From assembly GCA_003024785.1 (NCBI GenBank), contig PUQB01000076.1, forward strand, positions 505,936 to 569,935: 64,000 nucleotides of DNA, read 5' to 3'. The DNA is from Selaginella tamariscina (taxonomy: Eukaryota; Streptophyta; Lycopodiopsida; Selaginellales; Selaginellaceae). The stretch's first letter is position 1. Each line of letters begins with the position of its first letter. Shown piece by piece: positions 1-33,819 of this stretch. The notes under the pieces are model-generated. The model did no database searches and was not told the DNA's origin. It worked only from the letters and a program-made list of their open reading frames with translations. A program made the position numbers and the translations under genes.

Positions 1-1446
1 AAGAAAGCTTAATTTTTGTAGGCTGCCTGACAAGGGGATACAATCCATAAGCATCTTAGATTTACATGGAGACAAGAGTTCCTACTATGTAATCTTACTG
101 CTGTCTTAGTAGACGGCAAACGTGTACGATTGGACAATAAGGAACGGGATCTTGGAATAATTTTGATTCAGGTTCAGCTTCACATACCTACCACCTACAC
201 TATATCGAAGGCTACGAAGCGCAATCATCTCATCAGTTGATTTACCAATTGTGAATAATAGTAATTATGACCTGTGCTTTGATAGAAGTTACAAAAACTT
301 GGGTCCCTTCCCACATATTGAGCTTGAGTTTGAGTCTGGTAAGGCCGTTATGATCCCATCTTCGGAAAATTTTTTGCGCCCTCCAGCTGATAACAACCAC
401 ATAGTTTGTCTTACTATTCTTCTAGCATGAATCCATCAGTGGGCTATCTGATGCAACGGGGTTTCCATGTGCTTTTGATAATGAAGCTTCAAAAATATAT
501 TTTGTACCAGCTACATGTGATGACCTCTAAAGGCATGATCTAATAATAAATAGTCTGATTCCGATACATAAGATTGTGCATGTTTGTATGGATTAACCTA
601 CAAATATATAGATATGTGATTATAGATTCACTATATGTATATATTATTCTAGTTAATAGATATCAAACTATTGAACAGAGAACTGCAACTTCTTTTTAAA
701 AGAATATTTTTAGAATTTTCAACAGCAGAGAGTAGAGGTCTTCTCATCATGTCAAGCGAGTCCGTAATTGTTGTGTGCTCTTCTGTTTGTTATTTGGTAG
801 TTCTGTCGTTTATTTATTGGTGGTAGTATTTTCTTTTTACTTTTGTTGTTGCAATACAGCAAACATTCAGCAATTGCACCATTTTGCGGAACGTGAAGGT
901 ATAAATCGGCATTTCGGTGGGCAAAGCTATTTTTTAAAGGGACCGAGTGGTCTTGACAATGTCCCCATCCACAGCCACGTAGTGAGTGGTCCTGACAATA
1001 TCCCCCACCACAGCCGCAGTGGACGTGATATGTTACTGCAAGTCCTAGATTGTTAACTTTTAAGATAGTGTTATTGTGGCCCAAGTGCATATCTGCGAAT
1101 TGGGGCCTCATTCAACCTTATCGGATCTAGGTGAATCATGCTATTGTTTAATAAAGAATTCAGTGGTTTTAAGTCATTAGGGAGGTTGAGAATAATTAAA
1201 TTAAAGTCGTACTCACTCGCTTCTTCAAGAAATTGTGTTTGAGAATCTGATGTGTGACATTCGATGACAAGACCTTGTAACTTCTTGTATGGCTACTCCA
1301 CTCCAAACCTCATCAAATACAATCTATGCCCATTTCCTCAATGTTAAATACAGTCAAATCATATTTGCTATGAGCAGCTATCAATGTTGGATGAATAACA
1401 GAATGTTGTCATTGATGTCCATTGTCTTTGCAGCCATTTGCAGTCA
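1..1446. other. Left flank with no supportable gene
   Basis: AT-rich sequence before the target duplication of the Mutator-like element. The short open frames around 750-1110 are on opposite strands of the same stretch, have no recognisable domain and look like chance frames. I see nothing convincing in it. Confidence 0.6.
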
Positions 1447-1455: not shown

Positions 1456-1493
1456 GGGTCTCGGCGAAAAGGAGGCTCCGGCTCGGGAGGCTT
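1456..1493 (+). repeat. Left terminal inverted repeat of element A
   Basis: An imperfect repeat of about 38 bp that pairs with 9715-9753. Shared blocks are G(G/A)GT(C/G)TCG at the tip, then GGAGGCT about 15 bp in, then a GC-rich block ending GGAGGC. Confidence 0.85.
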
Positions 1494-1499
1494 CATATC

Positions 1500-1610
1500 T
1501 AGTATATTCGCGGATATTCTAGGTTATTCTAGCATATTCTAGAATATTCTAGAATATATAATTTTTAATATGCCGACTGGCTTAATATATGCCGACTGGC
1601 TTAATAAAAC
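1500..1610 (+). repeat. Left subterminal repeats of element A
   Basis: Several tandem ATATTCTAG-type repeats (about 1515-1555) are followed by two direct copies of TGCCGACTGG (1571-1580 and 1590-1599). The right end carries the same two classes of repeat in mirror order. The TGCCGACTG core is also the repeated motif of the central array, so it may be a protein-recognition site. Confidence 0.75.
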
Positions 1611-1632
1611 ATTATCCTAAACCCTAAACCAT

Positions 1633-4600
1633 TTATCCTTGTAGCACCGGTGGGTCATGAACTCTGTTGCAATTCACCAGCAAACGGTGGACCTCCATCT
1701 CACTGAGCGATCGCCTTTGTAGAAAATATGTGACGTCCGGGTTCAAGCCAAGCACACGGCTATAGACGAAGTACATGTGTACACATGGGCTCCAACTTTT
1801 GCTCTTCTGAAATGTAGAACAACTGCATGAAGGATAAGTATTAATAGTCACCTTTGCAGAGTCATTTCCTGCCGACACAACGAAAGCCTCCTTCCGTCCT
1901 CTAGCTGTCACTTCAACATTTCGCACACAACCTAAAAACGTCTTGGCCTTGCGGAAATTCTTCTCTTGTTCCTTAGACATTTTTGTTGGAGTCCGGACCA
2001 TACGTCCTTCGAAAGGTGGAATTGTTGTAGATCCAGCTCCACGTGGTGGCGATGGTGTTTTGTCCTTCTGACCCTCATCTACTCTTCCTGCCATCCCCTG
2101 TAAACCTTCCAGAACAAAGCCTGCATCCTGTAGTTCTCTGACCTCCTCACTTGTCAGCTTCGTTTCCTTGAGCACAGGCCAAACCGTTGGTGGTGTTGGA
2201 ATTCGTGACCGAAGAATTTTGCCGTTTGGCCGCGTGAAACACCCTGAATCTTTTGGGCAGAACCACATCATCTGTTGTACATACTCCTCATTCCCCAAGG
2301 CATCAATGTACATTCGTTTTCCATAGAATCCTGGTGCTGGCACTCTGCTTGGATAACCGATTGGTTTTCCACACAGAGCAGTTCCTTCCTGATTCATCCC
2401 CAAACACTTAACCTTACTGGATGCTCCGATTCGTCTGATGGCCCACTCTGTTTGAGCAATCTCTCTCTCCGAAACCTCTTCGAACCTTAACCTCTTTCTC
2501 CTGTTGTTTTGGACCACCCGCTCTGTGTACTCTACATCATGTCTGTGTGAACGTCGAGCATCAGACTGTTCTGTTCCTGTGACTGTTCTCCTAACAGTTT
2601 GCACTCGAACGTTAGTGGTACTCGTGAACTCCGGGCTGGTCAAGTGTTCCTCGCCTTCCACCAGATTGATAATTGTTGATGGAGATACACTTTTCCCCTC
2701 AGAGAGTTTGCGTTGCACTCGTTTCAACAGAGTTTCCTTCGAAGGCCCTGACCCTGTATACCTCCCTTCTATTGCCGCTTTCACCTTCGCACTCTGCATA
2801 ACTGCATCGGTGAGGTCTAACATTGTCGCCTCCAGCAGTGGTACTCTTTTGGCCAATCTTGCTCTTCTTGCTCTGCGTGAATCACTTCAGCATTGTTTGT
2901 AGTTGGAACGCTCGCGAGTCCTTCTTCTGTCATGTCTCCCAGTTCCGCCATGGAGATGTGGTCCTCATGCCTGATCCACCAAGACAGCCATGTCTTCAAA
3001 GCTCGAATGTTTGACGCTCGTCCTTCCCAAAAAGACTCGAGAATTGCCAGTTGTTCTTTCTTAGATTGTTCATTCAGTGCTGCAGGCCAGGCACGAGCAA
3101 GCTTCATGTGTTCTTCGCGATGTTCTTCTGCGATCCATTTCTTTGTCACCTGACGCACGGATTGCATAAAGTGAAACAGACAGCTTCTTTCCCTCCCTTT
3201 CATCTTTGCTCCGTTGTTGAATACTTGGCGCAAGGCTATCCATATCGCTCCAGCCTCATCCGACATGAAACCAGCAAAGTTGACATTCTCCAAACCCTGC
3301 TTCTTACAAACCTCTAGCATTGTGTTCAAGAACTTCAGCACTGCAACATTATCTTCGCGGCACATATCTGCGTAAGCTATAGTCACCATGGATCTGACAC
3401 TGCAAGAGAGCGTTAGATAACGAAGATTAGAAAGTGTTATGAAGAGTTTTACAACTTACAATGGGTCATAAAGGTGTATTCCAATTGTCGCCCAGTCTGG
3501 TATGCGGTGCGTGTGGTCCAGAACAACCCATTGATCATGAAGGTCTCCTCCACTTTGACACCTTCTGATGTACTCAACTCCTGAACCCGGTCCCTCAACT
3601 GTCATTTTGAAGATCAGAGGCTGCTCCTCAGCACCATGCAGTTCCATCCCTGGAACATGTATGACGTGAATGAAAGGTATTGGCAGCTTTGTCTTCAGCT
3701 CCAGAAGACCCTCGTAACCCTCTCTAAAGTGTGTCTCCTTCTGTCTTGATTGTGTAATCCAGTCCCGAGTCCTAAAAAAAGGTCACGTCAGTGTGTAGAG
3801 ATCTAAAGAAAAATACCTTCGATGGTTTGTTAGAGGTTCAAGTTTTGAGAGTAAACCAGTGTACGAGACTTCTCCTTCTTCCTTGAAAAGTTCTTCAAAG
3901 ATGAGCTCACGCGCGGCTTGAAACTCAATCACTCGTTGATTGGTTCGCGGACTGCTCTTTACCACGTTGCTGACACTAGATCTGGCTCGCTGAACGTTTG
4001 AAGCTGACACTGAGGGGCTGACTGGATGCTGATGAACACCTCTGTGAATGAACAACCTTGTAAAAGAAATGTCGTCTGGCAGAATGTAGTACACATAAGC
4101 CGGACAAGTGTGCACCAGCAATGGCTCCTCTCCACAATCTTACATTTTATGCCTATTACTTTGCCTGTCTCAGTTGTCTTTGCCTTCTCCACAGCACCCT
4201 TGAAGTGACATTCATTTGCTTTCTTCTCAAAAGCCAAGTAGGGGCAGGTAGGATTGATGCATTGGAGATGTCCGACACATGAACTTCGACTGACTCGCGC
4301 CGGAACATGCCAGTGTGTTGTGCTCGGGTGTGTCCAATGGTAGCAGCCATCCTTGCGATTCATCCCCGAGTACTTCTCTGTGCTTTCTGTCTTAGGGGGA
4401 AGTTCGAAAATGACATTTCCATTGTATATCTGCGGTAGTTCAGAGACTCGTTTAACTTCAGACGAACCAATGAGATCCTTCCCTATCCTACATTTGTCTG
4501 CTCTTAGAAGACACACCAGCATGGATTCCTCACGCTCCTCTGTCCGCAACCTGAACAACGGGCCCTTTGCCGGGCACAATGTGTAAAAGACAAACTGGTT

Positions 4601-4795
4601 TGATGCATTGCCTTCTGGTAACAACTCCACATCTTCTCCAGAACTCGCAGAAACTGACATCAATTGAACCACATGTATACTGAACCAACAAGGAATGTTG
4701 AAAGCAATGTGAAGATCATGTTCAAACACAAAAGCATTTCCATCTTCATCGACTGGGAAATCTTTGTCAATGCCTTCATAGGTAACTCTGGCCAT
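1633..4795 (-). CDS. MULE transposase with SWIM zinc finger (apparent frame breaks)
   Basis: This is the transposase of element A, expected to act in the nucleus on the element's inverted ends. The start is the ATG at 4793-4795. GT-AG introns at about 3816-3772 and 3459-3400 join three exons in phase. The N-terminal part has Cys/His-rich segments (CINPTCPY; later HRGVHQHP) like the WRKY/GCM1-type zinc fingers common in MULEs. The core has the first catalytic Asp in VVLDHTHRIPDW, the second in GFMSDEAGA, and a C-x2-H (CLFH) downstream. The C-terminal exon ends with a SWIM finger (CSCS...PCVHMYFV). Reading frame appears to shift near 4130 and again near 2880 inside otherwise conserved sequence, so the copy is either slightly broken or mis-assembled. 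It is transcribed divergently from the methyltransferase-like gene. Confidence 0.85.
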
Positions 4796-5340
4796 GACAA
4801 CGCAAGGAGAAAGCTCGGTGGTTTAGGAAAGCAAAGCAAAAGATTAAACACACTTTCCTTACCAAAAAAAAATTACAATCGTTAACAATAAACGTGAATA
4901 CACGTTTGTATATAATTAATTCTATGCTGCCCAGTTCACAGTGTTCTTAATGATGTCCTCTCTAGTATCACCGATTTAATTTAATTTCTACCTTTTATGA
5001 TTTGAAATATCTTCACATTTACCAATTATTCACATATTTTAAAATAAACCCTAAATATTAATGTCACATTTATTCCGTAGGGTTCACTGTTTTCATTGCG
5101 GCTAGGGTTTTTTGGTAGATAGGGTTTACTGTTTCCATTGCGGCTAGGGTTCTTTCAATCTCAGATCTGTTTCCACTGCGGCAGATCCAGAGGGTTTCTT
5201 CAATCTCAGATCTCAGAGTTACGGTTTCCACTGCGGCGCCATCCATTTCGACTCGATTCGTGCAGCGCCCAAGTATAACAATGGAGATTTCTGTGCCGAT
5301 TTAGATTCTCGGCACCATCCTGCTCAGCCGGCGGCCACAA
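4796..5340. promoter_or_regulatory. Divergent intergenic region with direct repeats
   Basis: This segment lies between the two head-to-head genes of element A and should contain promoters for both. From about 5085 to 5240 there are four imperfect direct copies of a GTTTCCATTGCGGC-like block, two followed by TAGGGTT and others by TCAATCTCAGATCT. No clear TATA box was assigned. The role is inferred from position. Confidence 0.5.
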
Positions 5341-6257
5341 GGTATGTGTAATTTCTGTATTTTATGATTTGCTGCTCAAAGTATTTCTTTTTCCAGAGAT
5401 ATAGGGTCTTCTTATTTGTGCCGACTGAGAGCACGGCACCATCCTGGTTCAGTCGGCAAACACAAGGTATCGTCGATTTATTTATTTTTTTCCTTGCGGC
5501 TCAAGTATACGTGTCACAATGTTTTTTTTCAGAGTTAATGGGTCTTTCCATTTGTGCCGACTGAGAGTGACGGCACCATCCTGGTTCAGTCGGCAAAAAC
5601 AAGGTATTTTCGATTTGTTTTTTTTTTGCTTTCTGGCTCAAGTATTCGTATCACAAGGTTTTTTTTTCAGAGTTAATGGGTCTTCCCATTTGTGCCGACT
5701 GAGAGTGACGGCACCATCCTAGTTCAGTCGGCAGCCACAAGGTATGTTCGATATATTTATTTTTTGCTTTCTGGATCATGTATTCGTATCACATTGTTTT
5801 TTTTCAGAGTTAATGTGTCTTCTCATTTGTGCCGACTGAGAGTGACGGCACCATCCTTCTTCAGTCGGCAGCCACAAGGTATTTTGAATTTGTTTATATT
5901 TTGCTTTGCGGCTCAAGTATCCGTATAACAATGTTTTTTTTCAGAGTTATAGTGTCTTCCCATTTGTGCCGACTGAGAGTGACGGCACCATCCTTCTTCA
6001 GTCGGCAGCCACAAGGTATTTTGAATTAGTTTTTTTTTTCTTTGCGTCTCAAGTATTTCTTTTAAAACAGTTAATGGGTCTTCCCATTTGTGCCGTCTGA
6101 GAGGGACGGCACCATCCTATCTCAGTCGGCACCATTATCTCTTCAGTGCCGTCTGACAGAGTCGGCACAAACTATCTCAGTCGGCAGGTTTTTTCTTCTA
6201 CATCTCTCTGCCGACTGAGAGGGTCGGCAGCATCTAGCTTGAGTCGGCAGCCACAAG
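5300..6257 (+). repeat. Tandem array of exon-like units with TGCCGACTGA/TCAGTCGGCA inverted repeats
   Basis: There are five regular units of about 137 bp plus diverged units at each end. Each regular unit has a T-rich tract ending in CAG, a 70-71-nt block, then CACAAG followed by GTAT (AACAAG in the third block). It therefore looks like a small exon between a splice acceptor and donor. The blocks are 5397-5466, 5533-5603, 5671-5741, 5808-5878 and 5945-6015; a first diverged block ends at 5341 and a longer compound one spans 6071-6257. Each block carries TGCCGACTGA and, about 20 nt on, its inverted copy TCAGTCGGCA. I count six exact forward and seven exact inverse copies in the array. The array ends directly upstream of the intron preceding the methyltransferase-like start codon, so it probably forms a spliced 5' untranslated leader. 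Confidence 0.85.
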
Positions 6258-6332
6258 GTTAGTCATCTTTGTTTGTTTTTTTATTTTGACTCCTCATCAA
6301 TTGACTTGTGTGTTTCTTTCCAGAGTTTCAAA

Positions 6333-9300
6333 ATGGTGAGAGCTTCAAAACGTCTACTAGAGACTGCGCCTGATGAAGAGCCACGGGAAGAGAAGAGGAT
6401 ATCGAAGCAGAAGCGAGGCAAGAGAGGAGAACCATCTAATGTAGCAAAGGAGGATCCTCCAGTGACTCAGTCTGGAGTAGTAGCAGTTGAGCAAGAACAG
6501 CCTCCACCAACAATCACAGATTTCCCGGAGAGCTCGTCGCAGTTGCCTCCTTCATCCGCTGAGGTTGCAGTCCTGAACGAGCAAGTGCAGATGACAGAGG
6601 CAGCTGAAGCTAGCGAGGACGACTTGGAGGAGGCAGTCAGCAAAAAGAGAGGCCGCGGGAAAGCTGATTCAAAAGGCAAGAAGGCGAAGAGCGATAAGGA
6701 GCCGAAGGAGTTATACAGCATACCGGCGAGCCTGCATTTGGAGAGCTCAGCAAACCTGCTCGACAAAATTACTATCAAGGGACTTGGTGATCCTCCTGAT
6801 GTGCCCATCTGCAGAATACATTCCAACGAGGTGGTTCGACGAGTGAACCCAGGGGACTTGGACAGGCTGGTGTCATCGTTGAAGAAGGCTGGTTATCTAC
6901 GCAACACGGCCTTGTTCATTCTGTCCATCGGAGATCGACTCACTGCTGAGGAGCTATCGGAGCTGTCGAAGGACACGATTCAGTACGAGCAGCACCGGTC
7001 TTTCGAGCAAGCTCTTACTCAGCCGGAGTACAAACAGTGGGCTTCAAGGCTCTCAAACAGGAAGTTTAGCTGCTGGGACGGGAACCATAGGCTACAGGCT
7101 TTGCAGAAGCTGTACCGAGAGGATGCAGAGGACAACCAGCGATGGGCTATTCGCGTTCGATCGAGTTTCATCTCCACGGAGAACCTCGACATTCTTCAAC
7201 TGGTTTCGATGTTCCAATCGATTAACATGTGAGTATTTTCTTTTCTTTTTGTTAAGAGTTTAGACTTACAGTTTCGTTGAACAGATCTTCAGCAACATCT
7301 GTGGAAACAACGCTACCACATATTCTCCTCGCTGTAAAGGCGGTCTGCACTAGTACAGAAGGAACTCAGAAAATCCTCGAGTCACTCACGGAGGTTGATC
7401 GTCTTGAGGTGCGGAAGTGGAAGGAGAGTTCATCAGGAAAGACGGCTTGGCATCCTCTTCCGAACCTGATCTGCGCAAAGATACTTTTCAAGGTAACCTC
7501 CGATTTAATTTATAGGAAAGAAATTTTTAACTTGTTCTATGTGCAGAACGAGATCGACGATGATCTCGACAGAGCAGTCACCAGTGCTAAGGGCAATCAC
7601 AGGTTGAGGTGAACCTAAGCAGCTAGTGTACAAGAAGCATGACAAGCGTATGCACAAGTTCCTCTCCATCATAGACCCAGACTTGGGGGAGGAGTGGTTC
7701 CAGAAGGTGACAAACATCTCTCATAAGCAGTGTCGCTGGATGGGCATTGAGAAGCTGTATGCGATGTCAAGGGCGAAGATTCCAAACATGCTGCGACTCC
7801 GATACCTGAACAAGCTCACCCGTCTCGAATCCAAGGCAGAACAACAGACACTTGGGCTACCGGGCATGCAGGACAAAGAGTGGATCAAGTGGTTCACCTT
7901 GGACTTATATTGGAAGGCTGTGCGCGAGGAAGCCATTCAGATCCTTAAGGGGTTGCGAGAGGATGGTGAAGAAGTTGGAACGGATGTCGACTTCATGAGC
8001 TGGTTTGACGAGATGAGAATTCGGAGCAAGTGCCTGGTCTTTCAGCCCTTCCATGACTGCATACGGTTCACTTATTCGATGGAGCCGAATGAGTTTCTGG
8101 AGCGTGAGGAATCTGCGCGTCGGATGATATGGAGGTAAGCTTTCAATCCAGCATTGCTACTGTCTGACTTTGTGTTGCAGGTTCATACTGGCGAAGCAAA
8201 TGACACCGTCCCATACGATGAAGCTGTGGACAGATCATACAAGCGAGCCTCACATGTGGTCGAAGAGCAGAGGAGCTCTAACACCGTTCGAACGGGAGCA
8301 TGTTCCATTCTGGCTCGACTGTCCGTCGCAACAGCCACCAGCTTGGGAGAGCACACTATTCGACATGCACGCCAATGATCTACCAGCGATTGTTTGGGAG
8401 CCAGAAGAAGTAGAGGCTATCAAGAAGAGCAAGATGAAGAAGACGGTGCGGAAGACAACTACACCTGCAAAGGGATCGGGAGCGGGACCAAGCTCTTCTA
8501 CAGCACCTCCGCCGGCATTCGACTTTACAATCAATGAGGTACAGCCACTTGTAGCTAGTTTGGACATCAAGGACGACCTGATGACCTTCATCCCGACCCT
8601 GGCTGCATCCCGTGGATCCTACGACCTAGCTGTGTGCGACATGGAGGAGATGAGCAGGTCTTTCTTCGAGCCAGGTGCTTCCCAGACAGAGGTGTACACC
8701 AAGCTCCGAGAACAGGTTGACAGACTACATACGGTTGAGTCACAAACGTTGTTCCAGGAAGTGGTAGGTGAATACGGCTTCAACCTCATCATCCTCGACT
8801 TGCCCAATGAGCTTGTATATGGAGGTGCTAGCATCAACAAGGACATTGTGCAGCTAGATCCGGTGAAGTTTGAGGAGGCCTTGCAGTTCAGTGGAATGCA
8901 CTTGGCAGCGAGTGGTTTCATGGTCGTCTTCGCGAGTTCTCCTTCTGTTTCGGCGGTGATTCAGGCGGCTGCAGTAATCAACTTGGAGGTTGCAGGGACT
9001 TACAGCGTCTACCGTGCACGAGGCTGGGGATACCGTGACAAAATTAAGGTAAGCTAGCTATTCAAGTTCAAGTTTAACTTGGTCTATGTGGCAGGATAAC
9101 TTGTTAGTTCTCTTGGTGCTGCAAAGCTCTGAGAAGAAGTCGAAGAGGCCAAACCCTCTGGCGTTGACGAACACGATCCTCGTCGACACTGCCGACCGTT
9201 ATCAGGAGGCTTGGTAAGGAAGTGCTTTGCTATGTTTATCCTAATGGAAGATTGTGCAGGATTATGATTCAACCGAAGAGTGTTCGACTCATGCAGCTTT

Positions 9301-9557
9301 TGATCGAGCGTCTCAGTAGACCTGGCGACCTAGTCTGGGATATTGGTTCCGGAACCGGGTCATCATTGTTAGCTGCCGTCGAGCTCGGAAGGAATATTAT
9401 AGGAACCGAGAAGAGTTTCGAACTCTCTAGGTTGGCAACAAACAAGCTTGCAGAGAACATTAGACCAGAAGAGTTACCTACTCAAACACCTCCACGTCCA
9501 AGCGTAACTGGTGGTTCGAGAACTGCAGCTTTACTTAAGATGAAGAAGAAACTTTAG
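6333..9557 (+). CDS. ParB-like domain fused to N4/N6-type DNA methyltransferase-like domain
   Basis: A six-exon gene of element A, roughly 990 residues. The start is the ATG at 6333 (MVRASKRLLE), just after a CAG acceptor at 6323. Introns 7229-7284, 7493-7546, 8135-8180, 9049-9094 and 9214-9259 all have GT-AG ends and restore phase. Residues 1-125 are charged with basic nuclear-localisation-like runs (KQKRGKRG, KKRGRGK). Residues about 155-265 resemble the ParB/sulfiredoxin fold: VPICRIHSNEVVRR, a helix, then CWDGNHRLQALQKL, matching ParB's G-x-R-R/H-R-x-x-A motif. The C-terminal half fits a beta-class amino-methyltransferase: a motif-IV-like strand NLIILDLPNELVYGG before the cofactor motif LVWDIGSGTGSS and IIGTEKS, preceded by PKSVRLMQLLI. 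The usual DPPY is DLPN here, so catalysis is doubtful. One apparent frame shift lies near 7605-7612. ParB-methylase fusions are known in phages and bacteria; this gene was probably acquired from such a source. Confidence 0.8.
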
Positions 9558-9635
9558 CTAATGTATATTGAGTAATAAATTAAGCTAATATAAAAAAAAT
9601 TAAAAAAGAAATACAACAGTTTTAATAGAATTCTT

Positions 9636-9711
9636 TTTTGCCGACTGAGGCCAATACTGCCGACCAGAAAGAATATTCCAAAATATTCTAGAATATTCTT
9701 GAATATTCGAG
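9636..9711 (-). repeat. Right subterminal repeats of element A
   Basis: TGCCGACTGA (9639-9648) and a second TGCCGAC are followed by AATATTC-type repeats and then the terminal repeat. This mirrors the left subterminal order and repeats the motif of the central array. Confidence 0.75.
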
Positions 9712-9714
9712 CCC

Positions 9715-9753
9715 AGGCCTCCTGGGCCCCAAGCCTCCAAAATGGCGACACTC
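9715..9753 (-). repeat. Right terminal inverted repeat of element A
   Basis: The partner of 1456-1493; the tip reads CGACACTC just before the 9-bp duplication. The AGCCTCC block is the complement of the left GGAGGCT. Confidence 0.85.
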
Positions 9754-9762
9754 GTAATTATA
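9754..9762. repeat. 9-bp target site duplication, right copy
   Basis: GTAATTATA, identical to 1447-1455. The flanking host sequence then repeats itself (a TAATTATATCCCTTCAAGCA block at 9755 and again at about 9780), so the target site lay in a short local duplication. Confidence 0.85.
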
Positions 9763-12700
9763 TCCCTTCAAGCACAACGATAATTATATCCCTTCAAGCA
9801 ACAAGACAGAGTTAAAAGGAGGCAAACCCCGTGTGCTACCAACTCTAGAAATAAGACTAATGCCTTTGTTAGAGTCACAATCTACTTCTTTACCTTTGTT
9901 TTCAAAACTACTTCCACCTCCTGGGGTTGCTATAACAATGATGCTAAATCATTGATGTGTAGACTTGACTCCCATGTCAAAATTTCACTCTCCAAAAAAG
10001 TACAGCCAGAACAGTACGTATTGCCACTAGAATGGGGTTAAAGAAGTCATTTCTTACTCCACATTGAGGAGAGCTTATGTGGTCCATTTAAAGTGTCGTG
10101 GTTATATGTTTGGAGCAACATCCTTCACTATTACAAAATTGCAGTAGATATAAAGATTTTGAAAATTAAAAATGATAACATACTTCTAAAGCATCCTCCT
10201 CATGGACTTGTCGTATAAAAGAAATATTTGGGCTTCATGAGAAGGTGAAGTGAATACACTCAAGAAGCAATTGAAACATATTAAATATGTTTCAATTGGT
10301 CTTGTCTTATCAAATTAATTATAAAAGTCTTCTTTTGTGCCAATGTTATCACTGTCTTAATAAAGGTTCTCCATAATTTTTTCTAAAGTCTTGCTCTTTA
10401 TTAAAGACAATGAATCACTTTAACCACTCATTGTCTCAATTCTAGGCAATTTTAAAGTTTATTACTCATCTTTTTGTTAAGGTGACCGAACTTGTTCATG
10501 TATCAACTTTGTAAGTCATTAGTGATCCTTATCTTTAATAATGCGTACAGTTTCTTTAGCCCCGTCCACCAACCTAAGGGGATGCTTGTGACCTTGTGAA
10601 ACTAATCATCACCCAAGATGGGGTTGATGATAAAGAAGAACTTCATTATGTGCTTATTGTGTTTTTTTTTACACTTATTGCTTTGCATTGGTTCTACCCT
10701 CGTGCTTTCCTTGAATTGTTTCAACGTGTTTTCTCTAAGTCTTTCTTGATTTCATTTTGGAAATGTAAATGTGTTGGGAATTAAGAAAAAATAGTAAAAG
10801 TGAGTCATTGAACATGATCTTTACACAAATTTAATAAAGAATATCAAATCGACTTCTCTGCTGCACTTTTCTTTCACGTCCAATATTGAAACAATCATTC
10901 TTGCTTGAGAAGGGTAAATAAAATTACACCCCCCAAAACTTGAAGTACTACTATCACTAGGTATTAGTGATTAGCTCAAATGGCTTTTTCTTATATTAAA
11001 TTATTTTCAACTTTAAAACATTTGAGATGAAAAGAAATTAATATAAATTAATTTAAATCTTATTTAAGTTCAATGCTCCATATCTGCCATAATTTAAAAT
11101 TTAAATTCAATAGCTAAGATTTAATTATTATTTTAATTAATGATAAGATTTTATAGTTAACCTAGTTAGCCAACTAGTAACTAGGGTAACCAAGTCGTCT
11201 AATGTGCCATGAAAATTGGTGGGTGTAACTTTTATTTACTTAGAAGCTAGGATATTTGTCATCCCTCCATGCTAGCACAACATGTCTTAACATCAATAAT
11301 ACATGTGGTAGTGTAGTCTCAACAAAGTGGCAAATGAATTGCAATATATAAATTATTCACACAATGTTAATTAGTTGAATCATTTACATGTTCATATATT
11401 TGAACATGGTGACAAATTGGAGATCATCTACATCTGATTTGCGCATGAAACTAATCGTACCAAATTGCCCATGTTTCTTATCTTGCACTTCCATTACCTC
11501 CTTGTATAGCTTTTTGCAAAAGCTTGAAGCATGAAGAAAGAATGATAATGCTTTAGCCCTGTCATGGGGATATGTGTGGACACACCTCTTTGGTGGGGTT
11601 AATGCATGAGCTTATCTAAGTCTCATGGGGAAAATCCTAAAGTCTACTTATTCTCTAGGGTTTGGAGGGTAGAGTACTTAGGATAGAACTTAAGTCTCAT
11701 CCTATATGAGTTTAATCCATAAAGAATGATGTTTGAGTAAGCAACAAACCAACAAATTATATATATTTATTATATGCATGTGCCCTTTGTAGGGCTTCAT
11801 ACAGTATGCAGTAAAGCTTACTTTAAAGTCATTGGATTTGCACCAAAGCTAATATGAATAGTGTGCTGAGCAGGAGGTGTGAAATCTATGTCAGTGTCTA
11901 TTGCTTATCATTGTGTATGAGTTATTCTTCTTCTTCATCCAAGGTATTGTTTTGTCCTAAACTTTTGGCAATGGCAGAGTGAATTTCTATTGTGAAAGAA
12001 GTGGAGTCTTAGAACAAAAATCAACTCTTCACCTTCTTGCATACAAAGTTTGGAGCTGACTTAGAGGTTAAAAACTACTTAATGATAAGCAGATTAGGGG
12101 ATATTCATTCCTTGAGATGACTGAATCTCAGTGGAAGGAAAGCTGGGGTTTTACATGGCATTTGTTGGAGGAGCACGGAAGATCCTAAGTAATTGTGTTT
12201 CTTTGCCTCTCACTACTATAGATATTATCAACTTCCAGCTCCTTTGTTGTAGGCAGAGGTGGTTTTGCTGCATGGGGTGCTGTCGTATGGCAACATATGT
12301 ATGACAAGCTCCTAACCTCAGCATAGTGTCATATGATTCAATCCAATAAGAGAGCAGGGCTCTTTCAATGAACGACTTGCACTTAAAGGTTAGTATATTT
12401 GTCCCACAATTCTCTAAATACAGATGTAAACTATATATATAAAGTTATACTTAATATATGGAATCCCTATATGCCTAGTTGTTAATTGTCTACACATAAC
12501 ATGTAAAACACATGTTATATGCATTTTATAAATTATGTAATTAAAAAATCCATTAAAATGTATAAACTTAACATTGTTCTTGTAGGAGTGCGGTTTCACT
12601 ACTATACATGACATAATGAAATTTAATACAAAGATCATTCAGGAGGAGGATGTCGGCACCTTTCCAATGTACAATATTGTGTATTTCAAGTGGGCTTCAA

Positions 12701-13069: not shown

Positions 13070-14490
13070 CAGAGTTTTAACCTAGAGGGCTAACACATGG
13101 TAACACGTGGCCGCAAGTGGCTTTTCAGCGTCAAATCCTGTGTGAGCAACACTAAGTCTTCCAAGACAACCCCAAGAGTCTAATAAGATGCCTAGTTAAC
13201 AGAAGACTTAGAGTTCTACCTAAGTCCCCTAGAATGACCATCCTTGACCCTAAAGGATATCCCAAAGTAGCTTTAAGATCTTGTCCCAGTAGACCTAAAC
13301 AAGCTCATGCCTAACCTCACAAAGGAGATGTGTCTCACACATGCCCCGTGATAGAGCTAAGACATCGTCACTTACCCCCTTGAGGATCACCTCATCCGGG
13401 AGTCAACCCCTTTAGGGCGACAAGGGGGTACCCTGAACCACGACTAACCCTAGGGGTTTGAGTGGCCAAGTTATACCCTAGACTTAGGGATAGTACTTAG
13501 TGAGGACACGAGTGTGCGCCATTGGCAAACATGAGTGTTCTACTAAGCAAACCCCTAAGGCTAGGTTTGGATAACCCTAAATACATGACCTTGCGAGTGC
13601 TTTACGAAAGGGCTTCTGCTAACAAGTTTAGGTTGTTCAACCCTGGATTTCAAGGAGAACACTCCTTAGCCAAGTGTGCCAAAGCACACCTAGTTATGAG
13701 ACCTTGAGCAAATGCCTAAGGCTTAACACCCTAGTACGAGTACAAACATGCCTGTTTACTAGAGTATCCAACCCTTTGGTGACAATCCCACGACACAACC
13801 TCAAAGGGCGTGCCTCAGGCATTGTATCATATAACGTTTAGCCTAGTGTCACATCTCCATGTGACACTACCTTCCATGATGTGGCTATCATGCCATAGCC
13901 TTAGACTCAAGAGTTGCACCAAATGCCAACAAATGTGGCTCCTAAATGCCAACTCTATAACCCTCAATTATCCCTCAAGACTCGGTAAGGAAACCTGTCA
14001 ATTAAGAACCCTGACCACAGTTGGACAAGGACACGAACGTGCCTTGCTTAACTGTGAGCGTTTCTCTTAACTTGACGTGGAGGAGGAGGCTAGAGACAAG
14101 CCTCACCTCTGCTCTTGGAAGTGCATTCCCACAAGACCTCCCAGGCATGGATTTGCCAACGTTAAGGTAAGCACCCAAAGGTGGGACGTACCCCTATCAT
14201 CTGGAAGTTAGTGCAGCACAACAGAGGGTTAGTCTTGACGACACAAGCTAGAGTTTGCACCAGGAGAAGAGTAACGAGCTCAATTATGAATTCAGGAACC
14301 TTCACTCCTACATACTCTACCTTATTATGTGACGGAGCCCCCCCCTTTTATATGTGTAAGTGGTTGGCATAGAATGCCAACACCTTAGTTAATGAGATGA
14401 GTTTGCACACTAACCCCTACCCTAAACCTACCCAAGGGGTGTGGGTTTTAGGGCGTGGTTAGGGCAACCCTAGGTACACTATTCGAGCAT
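13070..14490 (+). repeat. LTR-like dispersed repeat, copy 1 (fossil)
   Basis: A moderately GC-rich, non-coding block rich in CCCTAGG/CCCTAAGG-type runs. It shares long collinear similarity with 56440-57660 (for example AGTGAGGACACGAGTGTGCG and the block around GGAGGAGGAGGCT) and, in its second half, with 17684-18500. The length of over 1 kb, lack of a gene and dispersed copies suggest a solo or orphan long terminal repeat of an LTR retroelement, now an old fossil. The open frames inside it are not genes. Confidence 0.55.
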
Positions 14491-17400: not shown

Positions 17401-17683
17401 TATGTGCGTGTGTAAAAATTGAATGACCAGCAAAGTGAAAAATGAACATCACTTTTCTCTAAAAGTCATTCACAAAATATTCATTTCTCAAACTAAGACT
17501 CATCAAAATGAAGGTGTATAACAAATATCCTTTTTCCTTACAAGACTATCTAACACAAGTGAATATCTACAAGGACTAGATTGGAACAATTATGTGAGTG
17601 TTCACTTTGGACCCTTACTTTAACCATGAAATCAAGGTCTGAAGTGAATATCTACCACATTTTTCAGGTTTTCTATGCATGAC
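14491..17683. other. AT-rich spacer with decayed coding traces
   Basis: Mostly AT-rich. Between about 15660 and 17300 the base composition rises and short plus-strand fragments with plausible codon use appear (for example around 16551-16763 and 16900-17260), separated by intron-like AT-rich segments. I cannot name the family. It is probably a decayed host gene or transposon gene. Confidence 0.35.
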
Positions 17684-18500
17684 ACAACCCCAAAGGGTGT
17701 GCCTCGAGTGTTGTACCATGTTCGTCTTAGTCTAGTGTCACATCTTCATCTGACACTCTCTTCCATGACGTGGGCTATCATGCCATAGCCCTTTAAATTC
17801 AAGAGTTACACCAAATATCATGAGCATAATTCTTAATTGCCACTCATACCCCTTAGTGAACTCTTAAGAACTGGGTAACGAGAACCTGTTAACCAAGATC
17901 TTACCCCATAGTTGGATAAGGACATGGATATGCCTTGCTTAATTAGAGTGTTACACTTAGCTTGATGTGAAGGAGGAGGCTGGAGACAAGCCTCAACCTT
18001 TGCTTTTTGGAATGTGCAATCTGATGAGACCTCTCAAACATGGATTTGTTAATGTTAACAGTAAGGGTGGGATGTACCTTAGTTAAGGCGGCACAAAGAG
18101 GGTTGTGCCTTAACGACATAAGTTGAGCTTACATTGTAGAAGAGTAACGAACTCAGTCATGAACCTAGTAACTCTCATATTACATACTCTACTTTATTTA
18201 TGTGACAAAGCCCCCCCTTTCTTATGTGTAAGTGGGTTGGCACGGAATTCCAATGCCTTAGTTAATTAGATGAGCTTACCCCTAAACCCTACCCAAGGGC
18301 TCCCTAGGGTTAGGTCAACCCTAGCTATTAACATGTCAAATTCATCTGCATTAACTAATAAGCCTAACTAGGACGTCAAAATTAGGAGAGAGTTTTTTAA
18401 ATGGAAATGTTAGCTTCACCTAGAGTTTTTTTACAAATACCTAATAACAATATAACAACAGTCAACCTTCAAATAAAGGGTCCAAGTCATAATAAAAATT
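17684..18500 (+). repeat. LTR-like dispersed repeat, copy 2 (fossil, partial)
   Basis: Collinear with about 13790-14490 and with about 56770-57660, including CATCATGCCATAGCCC-like and GGAGGAGGAGGCT blocks and the tail TTACAAATACCTAATAACA. It lacks the first several hundred bases present in the other two copies. Confidence 0.55.
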
Positions 18501-27533: not shown

Positions 27534-28693
27534 GCAGCGGGATTAATCCCGCCTCTATATGGTTAGACCCTTCAGGCAGGCTATTCGGTTAGCCTCATGA
27601 GCGGCGGGATTAATCCCGCCGGCCATGGCTTGTGTGTTGGGCCTAGGCGGCGGGATTAATCCCGCCACCTACGCATGCCTTGCGCGGAATCCGCAGGATT
27701 TATCCCGCCGCCAATGGCTTGTCCGAAGGGTTTAGGTGGCGAGATTAATCCCGTCGCCTAAGCATGCCCTGTGCGGAATTCAGCGGGATTTATCCCGCCG
27801 GCAATGGCTTGTCCAAAGGGTTTAGGCAGCGGGATTAATCCCGCTGGATTCCGCGTAGGGCATGGGCGTCCGACGGGATTAATCCCGCCACCCATGGCTG
27901 CGTGCTGGGCCTAGACGGCGGGATTAATCCCGCTGCGTACGCATGCCCTGCACGGAATTCGACGGGATTTATCCGCTGCCAAAGGCCTGTCCGAAGGGTC
28001 TAGGTGGCGGGATTAATTCCGCCGGATTCCACGCAGGGCATGGGCGTCCGGCAGGATAATCCCGCCACGTACGCATGCCCTGTGCGGAATCCAATGGGAT
28101 TTATCCTGCGCCAAAGGCCTGCCTGAAGGGCCTAGGCGATGGGATTAATCCTGCCGGATTTTGCACAGGGCATGGGCGTGCAGCGAGATTAATCCCGCCG
28201 AATTCTGTGCAGGGCATGCGTGGGAGGCGGGATTAATCCCGCCGTCTAGGCCTAGCATGGAGGCCATGGGCAGCGGGATTAATCCACCGCACGCCCATGC
28301 CATGTGCAAAATCCGGCGGATTAATCCCGCCACACATGGCATGCGAGAAGGGCCTGGGTGGCGGGATTAATCCCGCTGAGCCTTCAATGCCTGTGGACGA
28401 ATGAATCCTGCCACCCTTCTTTTTTCTCCATTGGTGAGTCGGACCAATCCCAAACGTTTCTGTCTGAGACGAATAAGGTTACAACATACCAATGGAGGGA
28501 CTGAAAAGGGTGGCGAGATTCATTTCAACCATCTTACATGGTGGGCAAGATTAATCCCGCCGCCTTTCTAGAGCCCCTGAAGGGTGTGCCAAATAAATCC
28601 TGCCCAGTTCTCTCTAAGACCAGAAAGGTGGCGAGATTAATCCGCCCACTCTTTCAGGAGGCATTGAAGGGTGGCGAGATTAATCCCGCCGCA
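27534..28693. repeat. Phased array of GGCGGGATTAATCCCGCC palindromes
   Basis: About 25 perfect or degenerate copies of the 18-bp palindrome GGCGGGATTAATCCCGCC, some with a TTTA centre. Centres of copies 2 to 19 (27609 to 28366) are spaced 42-46 bp, mostly 44-46, and spacers alternate between two types (a GCATGCCCTGTGCGGAAT-like one and a GGCTTGTCCGAAGGG-like one). This gives an approximately 90-bp two-palindrome unit. Copies 20-25 (28400-28690) are more degenerate and less evenly spaced. This is GC-rich sequence in an AT-rich neighbourhood. Confidence 0.9.
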
Positions 28694-29033: not shown

Positions 29034-32000
29034 ATGGAGTCGTCGTCAAATTCTGGGTAAGAATTAAAATAAAATCTGTTATACTCGGATATGTGCTTGA
29101 ACTAATCATTTTTGTATTCAGATGTGGAATTGAGGTGACATTAAAGACGAGAGCAGGAGAAGAGATGGGCAGGGGGATTCTGGAATCAACTTGGCCATAT
29201 TTCAAACTAAACGGGAAGCGCATTGGAACAACCATGGTTGCTGTCAAACTAACCTCTGTCACATCGCATGGACAAGCAAAACAATGGAAAGTGTGTGCTA
29301 GTCAAGCATCCGAAAGCATGCTGCGAACCCAGATTGAACGATGCTCGACACATATGCCTTGTTCCATCCAATGTCACGTTCTCGGATCCAGAGGTCGTCC
29401 AGTTACAACATTAATTTCGGGTGGTTTTGTCGACTTGTGGATAATGACGTTCACGTGTTCACTAATGATGTTGACCTTGGAGTTCTTCTTCAACTCAACG
29501 AAAGCCCATCTATGGAGGGGATCCACTGGATGTCTACTTCGAAGATCTTCAGACTCATCGAGTAGGTGTATTGTCAGGAGATATTGCTTCACAATACAGA
29601 AAATCACAAGTGGAGCAATCGTCCCTCTTCACATTGAAGAAGAACACAGCGACATCATAAGGAGATTGAGAGGGTGGCTTGGTCTCAGGTTCTTTACAGA
29701 TCACGTTCAATTTGCTTAGAAATTTGGGAGCTGGAAGAGTGTGCCGAGAACATTAGAACAGCATCAATCGGGGATCACACATGTTGATTCGGATCGTAAA
29801 GAAAATCTTCGTTTTGTCAGCTGCACCTGTGGCATCCCATGCTGCAATAAGCCACAAGGAAATGATGTTGGATGATAGGATTTACAGTGTAGGGTTAAGT
29901 ATTGCAGCGTCAACCCAAACTTCAATTACAGGCCACTCAACCAGGAACGTGTAGCTGAGCTCATGGAGAAGATGAAGGACGACAATTCTTACACCGTTCC
30001 ACATAATGCTGTTTTGTGCCATACTACGAGAGAAACAAAGGCGCTGACAAAGTGTGGATCACAACACCGGAACAAATGAGGAAGATTCAGACGGAGAATA
30101 GAAAATCTTCAAGTACTACATCATTAGTGGCCAGCACACAATAACGGCAGCCCAACGACTTCTCGACGAACACAACAAAGGAACGATGGCAACAAAACTT
30201 TCCGAGCATACCCGTGAGAAGCTGACGAAAAGATCGGCGTTTTTAGCGAAGCCGAATCTCACAATCGAGCAGTACCATAAGTTATCGGCGGAATGGGACG
30301 CTGCAGACACCAACCACTACAACAGCAAAATATGGGAGAAGTTCAAACACACGCGAGCCGTGTGGGAATCTCTTCAGCGACCACAAAGAGCCGCAGGGAA
30401 TACACAATCTGCGGATACCGGGTAAGCAAATTGTTTGGGCGGGATTTATCTCGCCGGTATATTAATCTGTCTTTTTTCTCAGAGAGTTGAAGAAATTGTA
30501 GCAGTTGATTTTGCCCAGGTGGGCGGGAAGGAAACATCCTTTTTGATGATGTTGATTTCTTGTCCCGAGATAGGATCTTTGCCAAATGGTTGGGGATTAT
30601 GGAATCCTTTGCAAAAGGAACACTGAAGAAGAAGCAGACAAGTGAAGGGAGCCCTCAGAGAAGTCTGCAAAGAAACCCAGTAAGACGCCGAAGGCTAAGT
30701 CTGTTCAATCTATAAAGGATGTAGACAACGATTTCAAGCTCACATGGTTGAAGCCTTTAAATGGAACAACGATGGAGGAGATGGAAGTCTTGGCTGATTT
30801 GGTGATTGATGGCAAACTACAGATTAACAACAGCAGCCCACCTCTCCTTTTCATCTCAAGGCAATGGAGTTGAAGACGGTCAGGCACTTCAAGGAGTGGT
30901 TGGGAATACACTGCCACAAACTGGGTTGGACCTCGCTTCAACATACGAAGAGGTCAGCAAATATTTGCATGTAAACGATGATATGCTTGTCGAATGGGTG
31001 AATCAATCGGAAGATCTGGGCAAGAATCTATTGCACGCCAACGCCAAAAAGGAGAACATTGCGATGACGCCTTCTCTTATGGCAGTCCTTCAGCAGCGGA
31101 GAACCGAGTTGAACCTTATAAAGGAGGATGCTACGAATCACGACAAGCCCTACAGATGTTTGTTGTTGGATTCGGAGACTTTATGGGGTACATCACTGCT
31201 TGTAGGAAACCGTTTCAATTGTTCGTGATGGATCGGCGGGTGTCAAAAAATCCTTCGACAGACAGGACACTAGAGGATTTGGTGGAGAAACTTAGCCGTG
31301 CAAGCATGTACAAAGAAGGTATTTATTATTGAATTCATACTTGCACTCTTGACTGATCTACGTTTTCAGGTATTTATTTCTTGATTCTTGCTCATGTCAC
31401 CGATACTTTGCCTTCGCCTTTGCCAAGAGAATAAACATCGTTGGACAGGATTTTATATGAATGATGCTGATCCGAAGTGCATTGATTCGTTGTTCACTTG
31501 GTTGTTAGGAATGCGCCAAACAATTTCAAACTTCCAAATGACTGGCCAGGCATCTGTTTGCACTCCAACGGCCCTGAACCTCCATCCGATACACCGATAT
31601 GAGAGTGACGTATTCGGCAATGTACGTTATCCAAACATTACAAGTCAAGCGGCACGGAGCATCGTCAACTTGATCAGGGGTCCTCACAGTGATGCGTGGG
31701 TTTTTGACTACTGCACTAGGGGGTCCGTCTTGAAGGAGTGTTACCTTCGGATACATGTGTGTTTGCCGTTGAAAAGGATAAGACCATGGTTGAGGACCTG
31801 AACAAGTGGATAGAGAGGTCTCAACTGACTACCCCAACGAATCCATAAAGGAGTATTTGAGAAAGTTCCCTCCGATAAGTGCGATAGCTCTGAAGACGAA
31901 TCTGGTTCAATGTCGGAGTCTGAGGACGAACTTCAATCAGATATTAGACCGGAAGTTATCTCGAGGAGTACAGAACATTCACACACTCCATTACCCATGG

Positions 32001-32108
32001 AAACATCAATAGAAGACAGAAGATCTTGAACCATCTCACAAGCGGCTTAGACCTTCTTCGCCTCACTCAGAAGGTAATAGCGAAGAAGAATTGTTAATGA
32101 GTTCTTAG
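29034..32108 (+). pseudogene. Element B ParB-like/methyltransferase-like gene, copy 1 (several frame breaks)
   Basis: The start is ATG 29034 (MESSSNSG), after which a GT-AG intron (29057-29121) joins in phase to CGIEVTLKTRAGEEMG. Another intron at 30422-30482 contains one copy of the element's palindrome. A ParB-like segment lies at about 29900-30180: NYRPLNQERVAELMEKM and, further on, YYIISGQHTITAAQRL, the same layout as ParB's R-P...I-x-G-x-H-R-x-x-A-A. Downstream, CLLLDSETLWG (about 31150-31185) sits where a motif IV strand is expected. VFDYCT-x-GS, then EKD-type residues (about 31693-31780), match the cofactor motif seen in element A (WDIGSGTGSS...TEKS). The tail is acidic and ends at 32108. 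The reading frame is interrupted several times, so this copy is probably dead. As in element A, DPPY is not preserved. Expected site of action is nuclear DNA; activity is unproven. Confidence 0.65.
30437..30457. repeat. Intronic copy of the element B palindrome
   Basis: GGCGGGATTTATCTCGCC lies within the intron at 30422-30482, nearly 1.8 kb downstream of the main array and matching its TTTA-centred variant. Confidence 0.75.
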
Positions 32109-32376
32109 AGTGACGAATAGTTGTAAATGAGTGTAACATAAGGCATTTTTGTATATTTCGTTTATATTTGTACAGAAAATAAATTCTCAAGGATTAATGA
32201 AGCTTTTAGTTCAAACATGGGTCACACATTAACAAGGTAAATAATATACCTTGATAATTTTAAGGTCAGCTAATTATCATTTTGCAGATGTAATGAAACA
32301 TTGAGAACATGGATTTTCAGCATTGCCATGAGGTAAGAGAGGGGTTTGGCGACAATTTCTTGTGCCACATGTCAGA

Positions 32377-33516
32377 ATGACAGAGTTCATGCAGGAAATG
32401 GATAATAATGCAGCTCAAAACATCGTTACCATGGGGCCACTTCAGTTTTTTCATCATCATTTTATTGGCTTCAGTTCCGAAATCAATTTCTTCAGCGCAT
32501 GCAATATCTGAATCTTGTAAGGATGATGTACAATTAAATGATGAAGGGATAGGCAACGAGATAGTGGCAACGGATAAATGTGAAAGGGAGCAAACAAGTG
32601 ATTTGCAAAGTATTCAAGAGGCAACGCTATCCATGTTACTCATGGCCATATTGTGTTGTTGGATGTCAATGGTGTTCTGCTTCATCGACAAAGGCCCGAG
32701 GATAGGAAAAAAGAAATCAAACAAGGAGATTTCATTCCTTGTCATGGTAAATTTCGATATGATATTATTTTTCGTCCAGGGTTGGATCGTCTCTTTCAAA
32801 AGCTTAAGGAGATGGGTGCGCTTGTGGGGATTTGGTCATGCATGCAGATTCATAACTTAACACCGCTGTTGAATTTGCTTAAGAAACATTGTAGTGTTGC
32901 AGAAGAGGTGATTCGTAAAGATTGGATTTTTGACCAGCGAATATGTTATAAACCTCTCGAATTTCACAATATAAGAAAGGAAAGCAAGCCATACTTCTTC
33001 AAGAATGAAAGAATAATTGGGACTGGGGAGATCAGTCGCTTAAGGATAATGAAGAACGCATATCTTAGTAGTAGACGACTCTCCTCAGAAGGCTATGCTC
33101 AACCAAAACATTGCTTGTATTCATCCAATCACTTTCGATCCATATTCTGATACCGATATCATGGATGAGCTAGTGAACTACTTGGATACGTGCCTCAGAA
33201 AGAAGAATCTCGAAAATTTTTGTGAGCAGTATCCACCGTATCAACATTTCCTGAAGCTTTTCTTTCTCGTGATTTGAATTTTATAAAATGAAGGATAGCA
33301 ACCGGGCGCTTTATAATATTATTCTTAAGGAACGTCAGTTTTTAGATGAGCCTTTATGCAGACCTTCTTATCACATCTTATGTATTAACAAGGATGGCAA
33401 CTCCCAATTGCATTCGTGAGAGTGTTAAGTGGTGGCAACAACATCAAGATATTGACCAAAATGATTTGATTAATCCGGAGAGTGATGATTTAGACAAAAT
33501 GAGAGATTTCTGTTGA
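32377..33516 (+). pseudogene. FCP1/NIF-type HAD phosphatase-like gene, element B copy 1
   Basis: The start is taken at ATG 32377 (MTEFMQEMDNNAAQN), conserved in the second copy. A HAD/FCP1 homology region runs from about 32650: VLLDVNGVLL at the place of the catalytic DLDET motif (the first Asp is kept, the second is Asn), then FRPGLDRLFQKL and GIWSCMQ. In the other copy HILVVDDFPQKA matches the conserved C-terminal DD motif. FCP1/SCP enzymes dephosphorylate RNA polymerase II C-terminal repeats; the Asn substitution makes activity here uncertain. A conserved tail (MKDSNRALYNIIL...) is continuous with the phosphatase frame in copy 2 but out of frame here. Several frame interruptions make this copy likely dead. 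It follows the methyltransferase-like gene on the same strand in both copies that keep the region. Confidence 0.65.
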
Positions 33517-33539
33517 TAGAAGAAAGTATTTATAAAAAA

Positions 33540-33819
33540 TTAACATGTTGATAAGAAAATGATTTCATTTGTAATTATGTTTGATAGTATTTCTTCATTA
33601 TTGTAAACTATTTTTAGAATAATATGAATATTCTAAGATATTTTAGGAATATTCCTTACTAAGTAAGGTTATTGAAGGATTAATTAATTAATTAATTAAT
33701 ATTTAAGGCTTAATTACATATTAATTAAATTAATAATTAAAACTTAAGTATTAATTAGTAATTTATTTTATATTCCCATTTTCACGTATCATGCCCACTT
33801 TAGTTACCAACGTGCATAT
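33540..33819 (+). repeat. Conserved 3' terminal region of element B
   Basis: Shared by all three copies (33540-33819; complement of 60583-60890 and of 63455-63760). It contains GAATATTC repeats, the palindrome CCTTACTAAGTAAGG and (TTAA)n runs, and ends CCCACTTTAGTTA(C)CAACGTGCATAT. The GAATATTC subterminal repeats recall those of element A. Confidence 0.8.

Follow-up and report, generated by a model that had tools for sequence, protein, structure and literature searches.

Gene content and boundaries of the element

The DNA stretch considered here, referred to as the window, comprises 64,000 nucleotides of the Selaginella tamariscina genome (contig PUQB01000076.1, positions 505,936 to 569,935, forward strand) and contains a Mutator-like element (MULE) of 8298 bp, whose edges are exact at 1456 and 9753. 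The element carries two genes read outwards from a common promoter region: a transposase gene on the minus strand and a six-exon gene on the plus strand (6333–9557), named PBM in this report, whose product combines a ParB-like segment with a methyltransferase (MTase)-like half. The family of the window element is referred to as family A. An earlier note on this DNA, made from the letters alone, had described a clean 9-bp duplication, inverted ends and a divergent six-exon gene, and these observations hold: GTAATTATA exactly flanks the element, the terminal inverted repeats GGGTCTCGGCGA and GAGTGTCGCCAT are present, here and in other copies, though they are short and imperfect, and the gene contains the quoted motifs and has GT/AG boundaries at all five introns. 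The features of the element are as follows.

1447–1455: left target-site duplication, GTAATTATA, an exact 9-mer that recurs at 9754–9762
1456–1570: left (transposase-side) end, with a short terminal inverted repeat and a GAATATTC-rich arm (inverted repeats I1/I4 with 9670–9709)
1633–4792, minus strand: transposase gene, DDE-like with CxxH and a SWIM-like zinc finger; its frame is broken in the window copy
4793–6332: shared divergent promoter region, between both start codons
5388–6131: 137-bp tandem array, 5.5 copies according to TRF
6333–7228, plus strand: PBM exon 1, with the ParB-like segment WDGNHRLQAL
7285–7492, plus strand: PBM exon 2, from splice sites and frame; conserved in family B (see below)
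7547–8134, plus strand: PBM exon 3, with the LGEEW middle region common to Adiantum proteins
8181–9048, plus strand: PBM exon 4, MTase-like half, motif IV reading DLPN
9095–9213, plus strand: PBM exon 5
9260–9557, plus strand: PBM exon 6, with the S-adenosylmethionine (SAM)-binding motif DIGSGTGSS (PF01555 positions 164–219)
9665–9753: right (PBM-side) end, a GAATATTC-rich arm and terminal inverted repeat (inverted repeats)
9754–9762: right target-site duplication, GTAATTATA, an exact 9-mer that recurs at 1447–1455

The transposase had been called a SWIM-type MULE transposase. A SWIM-like match is indeed found, with E-values of 0.0072 in the window copy and 0.011 in the 607-amino-acid frame of copy L010, but both lie below the Pfam cut-off, and none of the MULE models of Pfam gave a match; the 7966 candidates scored for the transposase included no match at E ≤ 0.01. 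The residues LDHTH, SDEAG, CLFH and NNAEV, read by eye, follow what we take to be the DDE/CxxH signature, and the pattern is similar in family B.

Copies, mobility and pairing of the two genes

The genome assembly (300.7 Mb in 1391 contigs) was searched with a 56-amino-acid PBM peptide, yielding 1063 candidates, and all 150 that were scored are 96–100% identical to the query, 139 of them at 100%. The first 20 of the 150 listed places were fetched (L010–L029), a sample chosen via PBM, which therefore says nothing on the number of transposase copies without PBM. The element is present in all 20 loci, its main blocks showing approximately 92–99.6% DNA identity, and the transposase part aligned in 18 of them, with the main copy starting at element position 3419 in L012 and 4598 in L021. 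Both ends were recovered by blastn in 15 of these 20 copies, or 16 of 21 when the window copy is included, the other five being without both ends in the stretch. With a scoring that let the ends slide by up to 4 bases, perfect 9-bp duplications flank 13 of the 16 two-ended copies, the window copy included, and every 9-mer is different; in the imperfect cases, L017 agrees at 8/9 bases, and L018 and L019 have no duplication. Chance is excluded by these copies, and the presence of both genes in most of the sampled loci together with the distinct duplications means that the pair transposes as a unit, so that the repeated co-occurrence of both genes inside 9-bp duplications, which the earlier note had put forward as support for a functional gene pair, is what the copies display. 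Among the matches listed (150 for PBM and 150 for the transposase), a divergent transposase match lies 2.3–4.8 kb upstream of 51 of the 150 PBM matches, and other arrangements of the two within 7 kb amount to 2 pairs. Family A is a large, very abundant, young and recently active transposon family.

One sampled copy, L021, is a 7.7-kb derivative with a perfect 9-bp duplication, in which PBM is present and no transposase part aligned.

A second family and the age of the gene pair

A further search, using as query a decayed PBM-related gene from the flank of the element within the window, gave 794 candidates, of which 150 were scored. One identical score (43% identity) is shared by 117 of the 150 rows, and a second abundant family, termed family B, is therefore recognized. 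Its copy L044 has the same layout as the window element, with the transposase on the minus strand, PBM on the plus strand and an array between them. Between family A and L044, the PBM proteins are 55.7% identical over 977 codons, with a nonsynonymous divergence (dN) of 0.38 and 0.85 synonymous differences per site, a saturated value for synonymous divergence (dS); the transposases are 57.4% identical with a dN of 0.36 (420 codons, first two blocks). PBM and the transposase have diverged to a like degree between the families, and blastn detected no similarity between the promoters or ends of the two. Within family A, the nonsynonymous to synonymous ratio of PBM is 0.65 of neutral (P 0.016, 21 copies), changing to 0.68 without the end of exon 1, where the peptide used for selecting copies lies, and to 0.66 without any of exon 1 (P 0.03 in these two variants). 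Because it is kept in the same arrangement in two families with saturated dS, PBM is an old, selected core gene of the lineage and not a captured fragment. The proposal of a functional gene pair is likewise borne out, PBM travelling with the transposase across copies and in both families.

The methylase-like half of PBM

The C-terminal quarter of PBM matches PF01555 above the cut-off (E = 6.3e-9), over positions 164–219 of the 221-position model only, and among solved chains the closest matches are to amino-methylases, MboIIA being one (E = 4e-4). The N4/N6-methylase-like half and the WDIGSGTGSS cofactor motif previously pointed out in this protein are thereby confirmed, and motif I, DIGSGTGSS, is kept in families A and B. 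When the whole PBM protein was compared with phages, 681 records were obtained at E ≤ 10; the 20 matches listed all fall in the MTase part, the smallest listed E-value being 7e-3.

The catalytic motif IV of amino-methylases has the canonical form (D/N/S)PP(Y/F/W). The corresponding residues of PBM are DLPN in the window copy, L031, L034, L041 and L044, NLPN in the decayed relative within the window (L030), and variants in the remaining 8 of the 13 loci read, L036 being mostly gapped; DPPY or SPPY was seen in none of the 13. A relative from the fern Adiantum (P0002) has CHLPT at this position. The absence of the aromatic residue speaks against methylation of bases, and the active marking of DNA that had been suggested for this protein is unlikely. 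The methylase-like half may still bind its cofactor; most likely, it binds cofactor or DNA without methylating.

The ParB-like half and relatives of PBM

The residue order CRIxxNExVRRV ... LxxSxKKAGY ... WDGNHRLQAL in PBM resembles, by eye, the N-terminal domain of ParB. Alignment with three solved ParB domains using hhalign places the segment in the expected register, with a pairwise P of 0.099 and a probability of just 0.6%; the local score was reached by 9/200 and 8/200 column shuffles, and in global mode by 169/200 and 162/200. SopB relatives were also considered as a source for the ParB profile and were dropped because they were too alike. Searches with Pfam, PHROGs and NCBIfam profiles gave nothing significant for ParB, and PF02195 had 0 matches in the whole genome at E ≤ 10, its control being positive in 11 of 14 genomes. 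The ParB-like part retrieved one match in phages by tblastn (E 2, a primase) and none in plasmids; the PDB sequence search returned no chain and then two unrelated ones (E 0.049 and 5.9); none of 21 pattern matches to the segment in viral contigs was confirmed; and the three phage methylases scanned for a ParB fusion are all plain methylases. The motif is thus present as quoted in the earlier note, but the assignment of PBM exon 1 to ParB is to be regarded as a lead, drawn from the motif and its register.

In protein databases, relatives of PBM were found in maidenhair ferns only, with one match in the first search and three in the second (approximately 8000 candidates scored in each): P0001 and P0002 from Adiantum capillus-veneris and P0003 from A. 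nelumboides, at 22–24% identity. The fern proteins share with PBM the ParB-like segment with WDGNHRL and the LGEEW middle region. P0002 also has a weak MTase-like tail (PF01555, E 0.26), which in P0001 is recognizable by eye. Unlike PBM, both P0001 and P0002 carry an additional C-terminal FCP1/NIF phosphatase domain (PF03031, E 2.4e-12 and 4e-14).

A short site shared by promoters and ends

Both families contain a short motif, TGCCGACT or its core TGCCGAC, in the divergent promoter and near both ends of the element. In the window element, the sites are located as follows.

1571–1596, plus strand: two TGCCGACT sites at the left end
5419–6249: 16 TGCCGAC/GTCGGCA sites in the wider stretch around the 137-bp array
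9639–9664, plus strand: two TGCCGAC sites at the right end, oriented as at the left end

Altogether 24 TGCCGAC sites occur in the window, 22 of them within the element, against 2.4 expected in the whole window, and L044 has 28 against 0.7 expected. Most sites lie in or beside the 137-bp array in family A and in a 39-bp array in family B; both arrays are situated in the divergent promoter and consist of unrelated repeat sequences. No 8-mer other than TGCCGACT is shared by the two ends and the promoter in families A and B (family B through L044, with approximate end limits), and 0 of 200 dinucleotide shuffles gave a shared 8-mer; the seven end sites of the two families are all on the PBM strand.

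The family-B palindrome AGTCGGCATGCCGACT occurs 1142 times genome-wide versus 0 for its reversed control, and the 50 listed sites all lie 2.6–3.0 kb upstream of the listed uniform family-B matches, in 8 of 8 contigs. The family-A unit, allowing at most one mismatch, occurs 588 + 546 times genome-wide (control 0), and of 31 clusters grouped by eye among the rows listed, 20 lie within 4.5 kb of a listed PBM or transposase match, the other 11 being unassigned among the matches listed. Fourteen copies have duplications that agree at 8 or 9 of the 9 bases, and the 11 of them with both gene starts located have between 12 and 22 promoter sites each. The flanks of the 14 contain four sites in total, three of them at L015 and the fourth at L017, whose flanks also carry pieces of further copies. 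Clustered short motifs in noncoding tandem arrays, as in VANC-type systems, are therefore a feature of this element.

Related systems

A ParB-MTase accessory gene has been described in Sola1-1_Ec32 of the brown alga Ectocarpus, and the available text of that report also cites similar transposon proteins from green and red algae (PMC12477816). The premise of the earlier note that ParB-methylase fusions are bacterial and phage proteins is accordingly out of date, and since such proteins in algal transposons are already in print, the kind of protein is known and the window element is a variant. According to the available description, Sola1-1_Ec32 likewise encodes a protein with ParB-like and N4/N6-MTase-like parts on the strand opposite to a DNA-transposon transposase, in a 21.5-kb Sola transposon (PMC12477816). 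The window element, in contrast, is of MULE type (9-bp duplication, SWIM-like transposase), 8.3 kb long and present in high copy number; its motif IV is altered, and its array of sites is conserved. A MULE with a ParB-methylase-like gene was not named among the literature matches listed, in a search whose coverage left out most subscription journals.

In layout, the closest counterparts are the Arabidopsis MULEs VANDAL21/Hiun, in which, as far as the accessible parts of the reports describe, a separate accessory gene encodes VANC and short motifs stand in variable noncoding arrays (PMC5735166, PMC10398659). VANC targets are short motifs in variable tandem arrays of noncoding MULE DNA (PMC5735166), and VANDAL/VANC, Spm TnpA and MuDR proteins are described as acting on their own noncoding DNA and lifting silencing (PMC5735166, PMC10398659). 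Whereas VANC motifs differ between families in these accounts, the core motif reported here is common to two very diverged families. PBM is ParB/MTase-like and is likened to VANC by layout and motifs, not by sequence. Spm TnpA and the maize MuDR proteins MURA and mudrB are comparable, by their published descriptions, in that a protein lowers methylation of its own element and in that a MULE carries a second gene (PMC10398659, PMC6446971). The bacterial protein Bce_0392 also joins ParB-like and adenine-methylase-like parts in one chain and is described, in the portion available, as a nicking enzyme (PMC5512222), whereas PBM matches no ParB profile and its catalytic motif is altered. Other transposons carry DNA-modification enzymes of different families, such as retrotransposons bearing DNA methyltransferases (DNMTs), which are reported to methylate, and Dam-bearing DIRS elements (PMC5890265), or the TET/JBP-bearing fungal DNA transposons (PMC12730594).

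Possible function of PBM

The reading that we prefer, and hold tentatively, is that PBM, alone or with the transposase, serves as a sequence-specific activator or anti-silencer comparable to VANC or TnpA. Its observed basis consists of the conserved gene pair, the sites and the departure from the usual catalytic motif; we infer which protein binds the sites and that anti-silencing is the outcome. The Mutator-like lineage has long carried the transposase and PBM, read outwards from one promoter region. PBM would act in trans as a sequence-specific accessory protein: by itself or in complex with the transposase, it would recognize the TGCCGACT sites, those of the promoter arrays as well as those close to the two ends, and the bound DNA would be kept open against host silencing, which would allow expression and transposition. 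If this is right, PBM would represent a second protein family doing the job of VANC in Arabidopsis.

Several observations weigh against this interpretation. Family B was read from one copy, with approximate end limits, and the common orientation of the end sites comes from four end regions. The sites in the arrays face both ways in families A and B, whereas VANC21 motifs are arrayed in one orientation in the text available. PF02195 has no match in the PBM protein. The nonsynonymous to synonymous ratio of the transposase within family A is 0.90 (P 0.40, two blocks), which is near neutral, and the selection signal at the depth of family A is therefore modest and limited to PBM. The transposase, moreover, could itself be the binder of the sites.

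This last point leads to the main rival, which is possible and, on balance, somewhat unlikely: TGCCGACT would be the transposase's own binding site, and PBM would be another kind of helper, such as a DNA clamp or a mudrB-like integration factor. Sites do occur close to the two ends, the places at which a transposase has to work, and conserved Cys/His pairs are seen by eye in the transposase N-terminus in the alignment of families A and B; available parts of the literature add that maize MURA lowers methylation of the terminal inverted repeats (PMC10398659) and that mudrB is apparently needed for integration (PMC6446971). The end sites are direct, however, where a simple transposase site would be inverted between the two ends, and the promoter array, not the ends, accounts for most copies of the motif. 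A further proposal, which we regard as unlikely, is that a bacterial-type ParB-methylase became a catalytically silent, site-specific clamp that loads at palindromic or repeated TGCCGACT arrays, which would serve as a parS-like 'centromere' at the promoter and the two ends, and spreads over the element from there, keeping it unsilenced or synapsed; this would place a ParB-like loading system inside a eukaryotic transposon.

The version of the earlier note, an element-encoded protein for DNA recognition or modification, stands as to the methylase-like half and its travelling with the transposase, but not as to ParB, and we consider it rather unlikely that PBM is an active methylase of the N6-adenine or N4-cytosine type by which element DNA is marked or shielded. 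The PF01555 and MboIIA-type matches and the SAM motif retained in both families speak for it, as does its proposal in print, in the part available, for the algal relatives (PMC12477816), whereas motif IV, altered in PBM and in Adiantum P0002 alike, speaks against it. That the array acts at the RNA level, its 137-bp units being repeated mini-exons of the 5′ untranslated region whose hairpins regulate PBM expression, is improbable: family-A units show by eye an acceptor-like T-run with CAG and a donor-like CAAG|GTAT, but the 39-bp units of family B are without such signals and yet contain the motif, which also occurs at both ends. Passive cargo, that is, a host gene fragment recently captured in Pack-MULE style, is the least probable of these readings and was rejected on the saturated dS between families that keep the same gene in the same position and on the lack of a closer host gene. 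MULEs do tend to take up host gene fragments, according to the accessible text of PMC6446971, but one Adiantum query returned no closer host gene among the best 150 of 545 candidates, of which 4 of the 150 scored passed at 28–29% identity, and the best of its matches lies approximately 0.65 kb from a listed family-B PBM match.

Algal genomes had suggested that transposons carry accessory proteins with ParB-like and methylase domains, which perhaps modify their own DNA. To these the window element adds an example with many copies, data on selection and a candidate binding site; its catalytic motif speaks against methylation, and the function of such accessory proteins is thereby directly testable.

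Reading-frame state of the copies

The transposase frame is 607 amino acids long in many of the listed copies, and a short frame of 212 amino acids is found in the window copy and four other listed copies. Relative to the column majority among sampled copies, the window copy differs by one base in five places: one difference is private and lies in the transposase, three are common to one or two other copies, and one occurs in 8 of 15 copies and is therefore no defect of the window copy. Among 21 copies, L024 alone has all six PBM exons free of insertions and deletions (indels) relative to the majority. The distinct one-base indels in the exon blocks comprise 78 deletions and 12 insertions found in single copies, and 17 deletions and 1 insertion found in at least two; L017 has 11 indels and 0 substitutions, and indels exceed substitutions in several copies. 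Given this excess of deletions and the pattern in L017, many indels look like assembly error, possibly uncorrected long-read indels. Some of the window differences may be inherited, so the window copy is called neither dead nor alive; its frameshifts are not family-wide.

Nested history and other features of the window

The element is inserted inside a decayed, minus-strand relative of PBM, which, like the TGCCGACT sites, is absent from the earlier note. The decayed genes in the window are as follows.

1104–1390, minus strand: 3′ MTase-like part of the decayed PBM relative (tblastn E = 1.2e-13 for two pieces)
9885–11533, minus strand: 5′ part of the same disrupted gene (tblastn E = 4e-4 and 1.7e-11)
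33883–35002, plus strand: decayed transposase relative (tblastn E = 8e-15 for 33883–34299, pieces to 35002 at lax settings)

At lax settings, a third weak piece of the PBM relative appears at 998–1057 and the piece at 9885–9974 has an E-value of 1.8e-4. Outside the element the window has only two TGCCGAC sites: one (12652) is upstream of the relic PBM, and the other (35195) follows shortly after the relic transposase. These positions fit a single old element, comprising the relic PBM and the relic transposase, that was broken by insertions, a link we infer. A candidate for the matching end of the relic near 35.2 kb was set aside: its alignment is at chance level, 43 of 500 shuffles doing as well, and other tiles score higher.

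Repeats resembling long terminal repeats (LTRs) occur at 30981–33819, 60575–61134 and 63447–64000; they are 92–97% identical, and one copy is inverted and ends approximately 60 bases before the transposase relic. GC-rich tandem repeats around GGGATTAATCCCGCCGCC occupy 27605–28244, and a dispersed repeat family is represented at 13464–14375, 17678–18477 and 56446–57659, with 70–83% identity.

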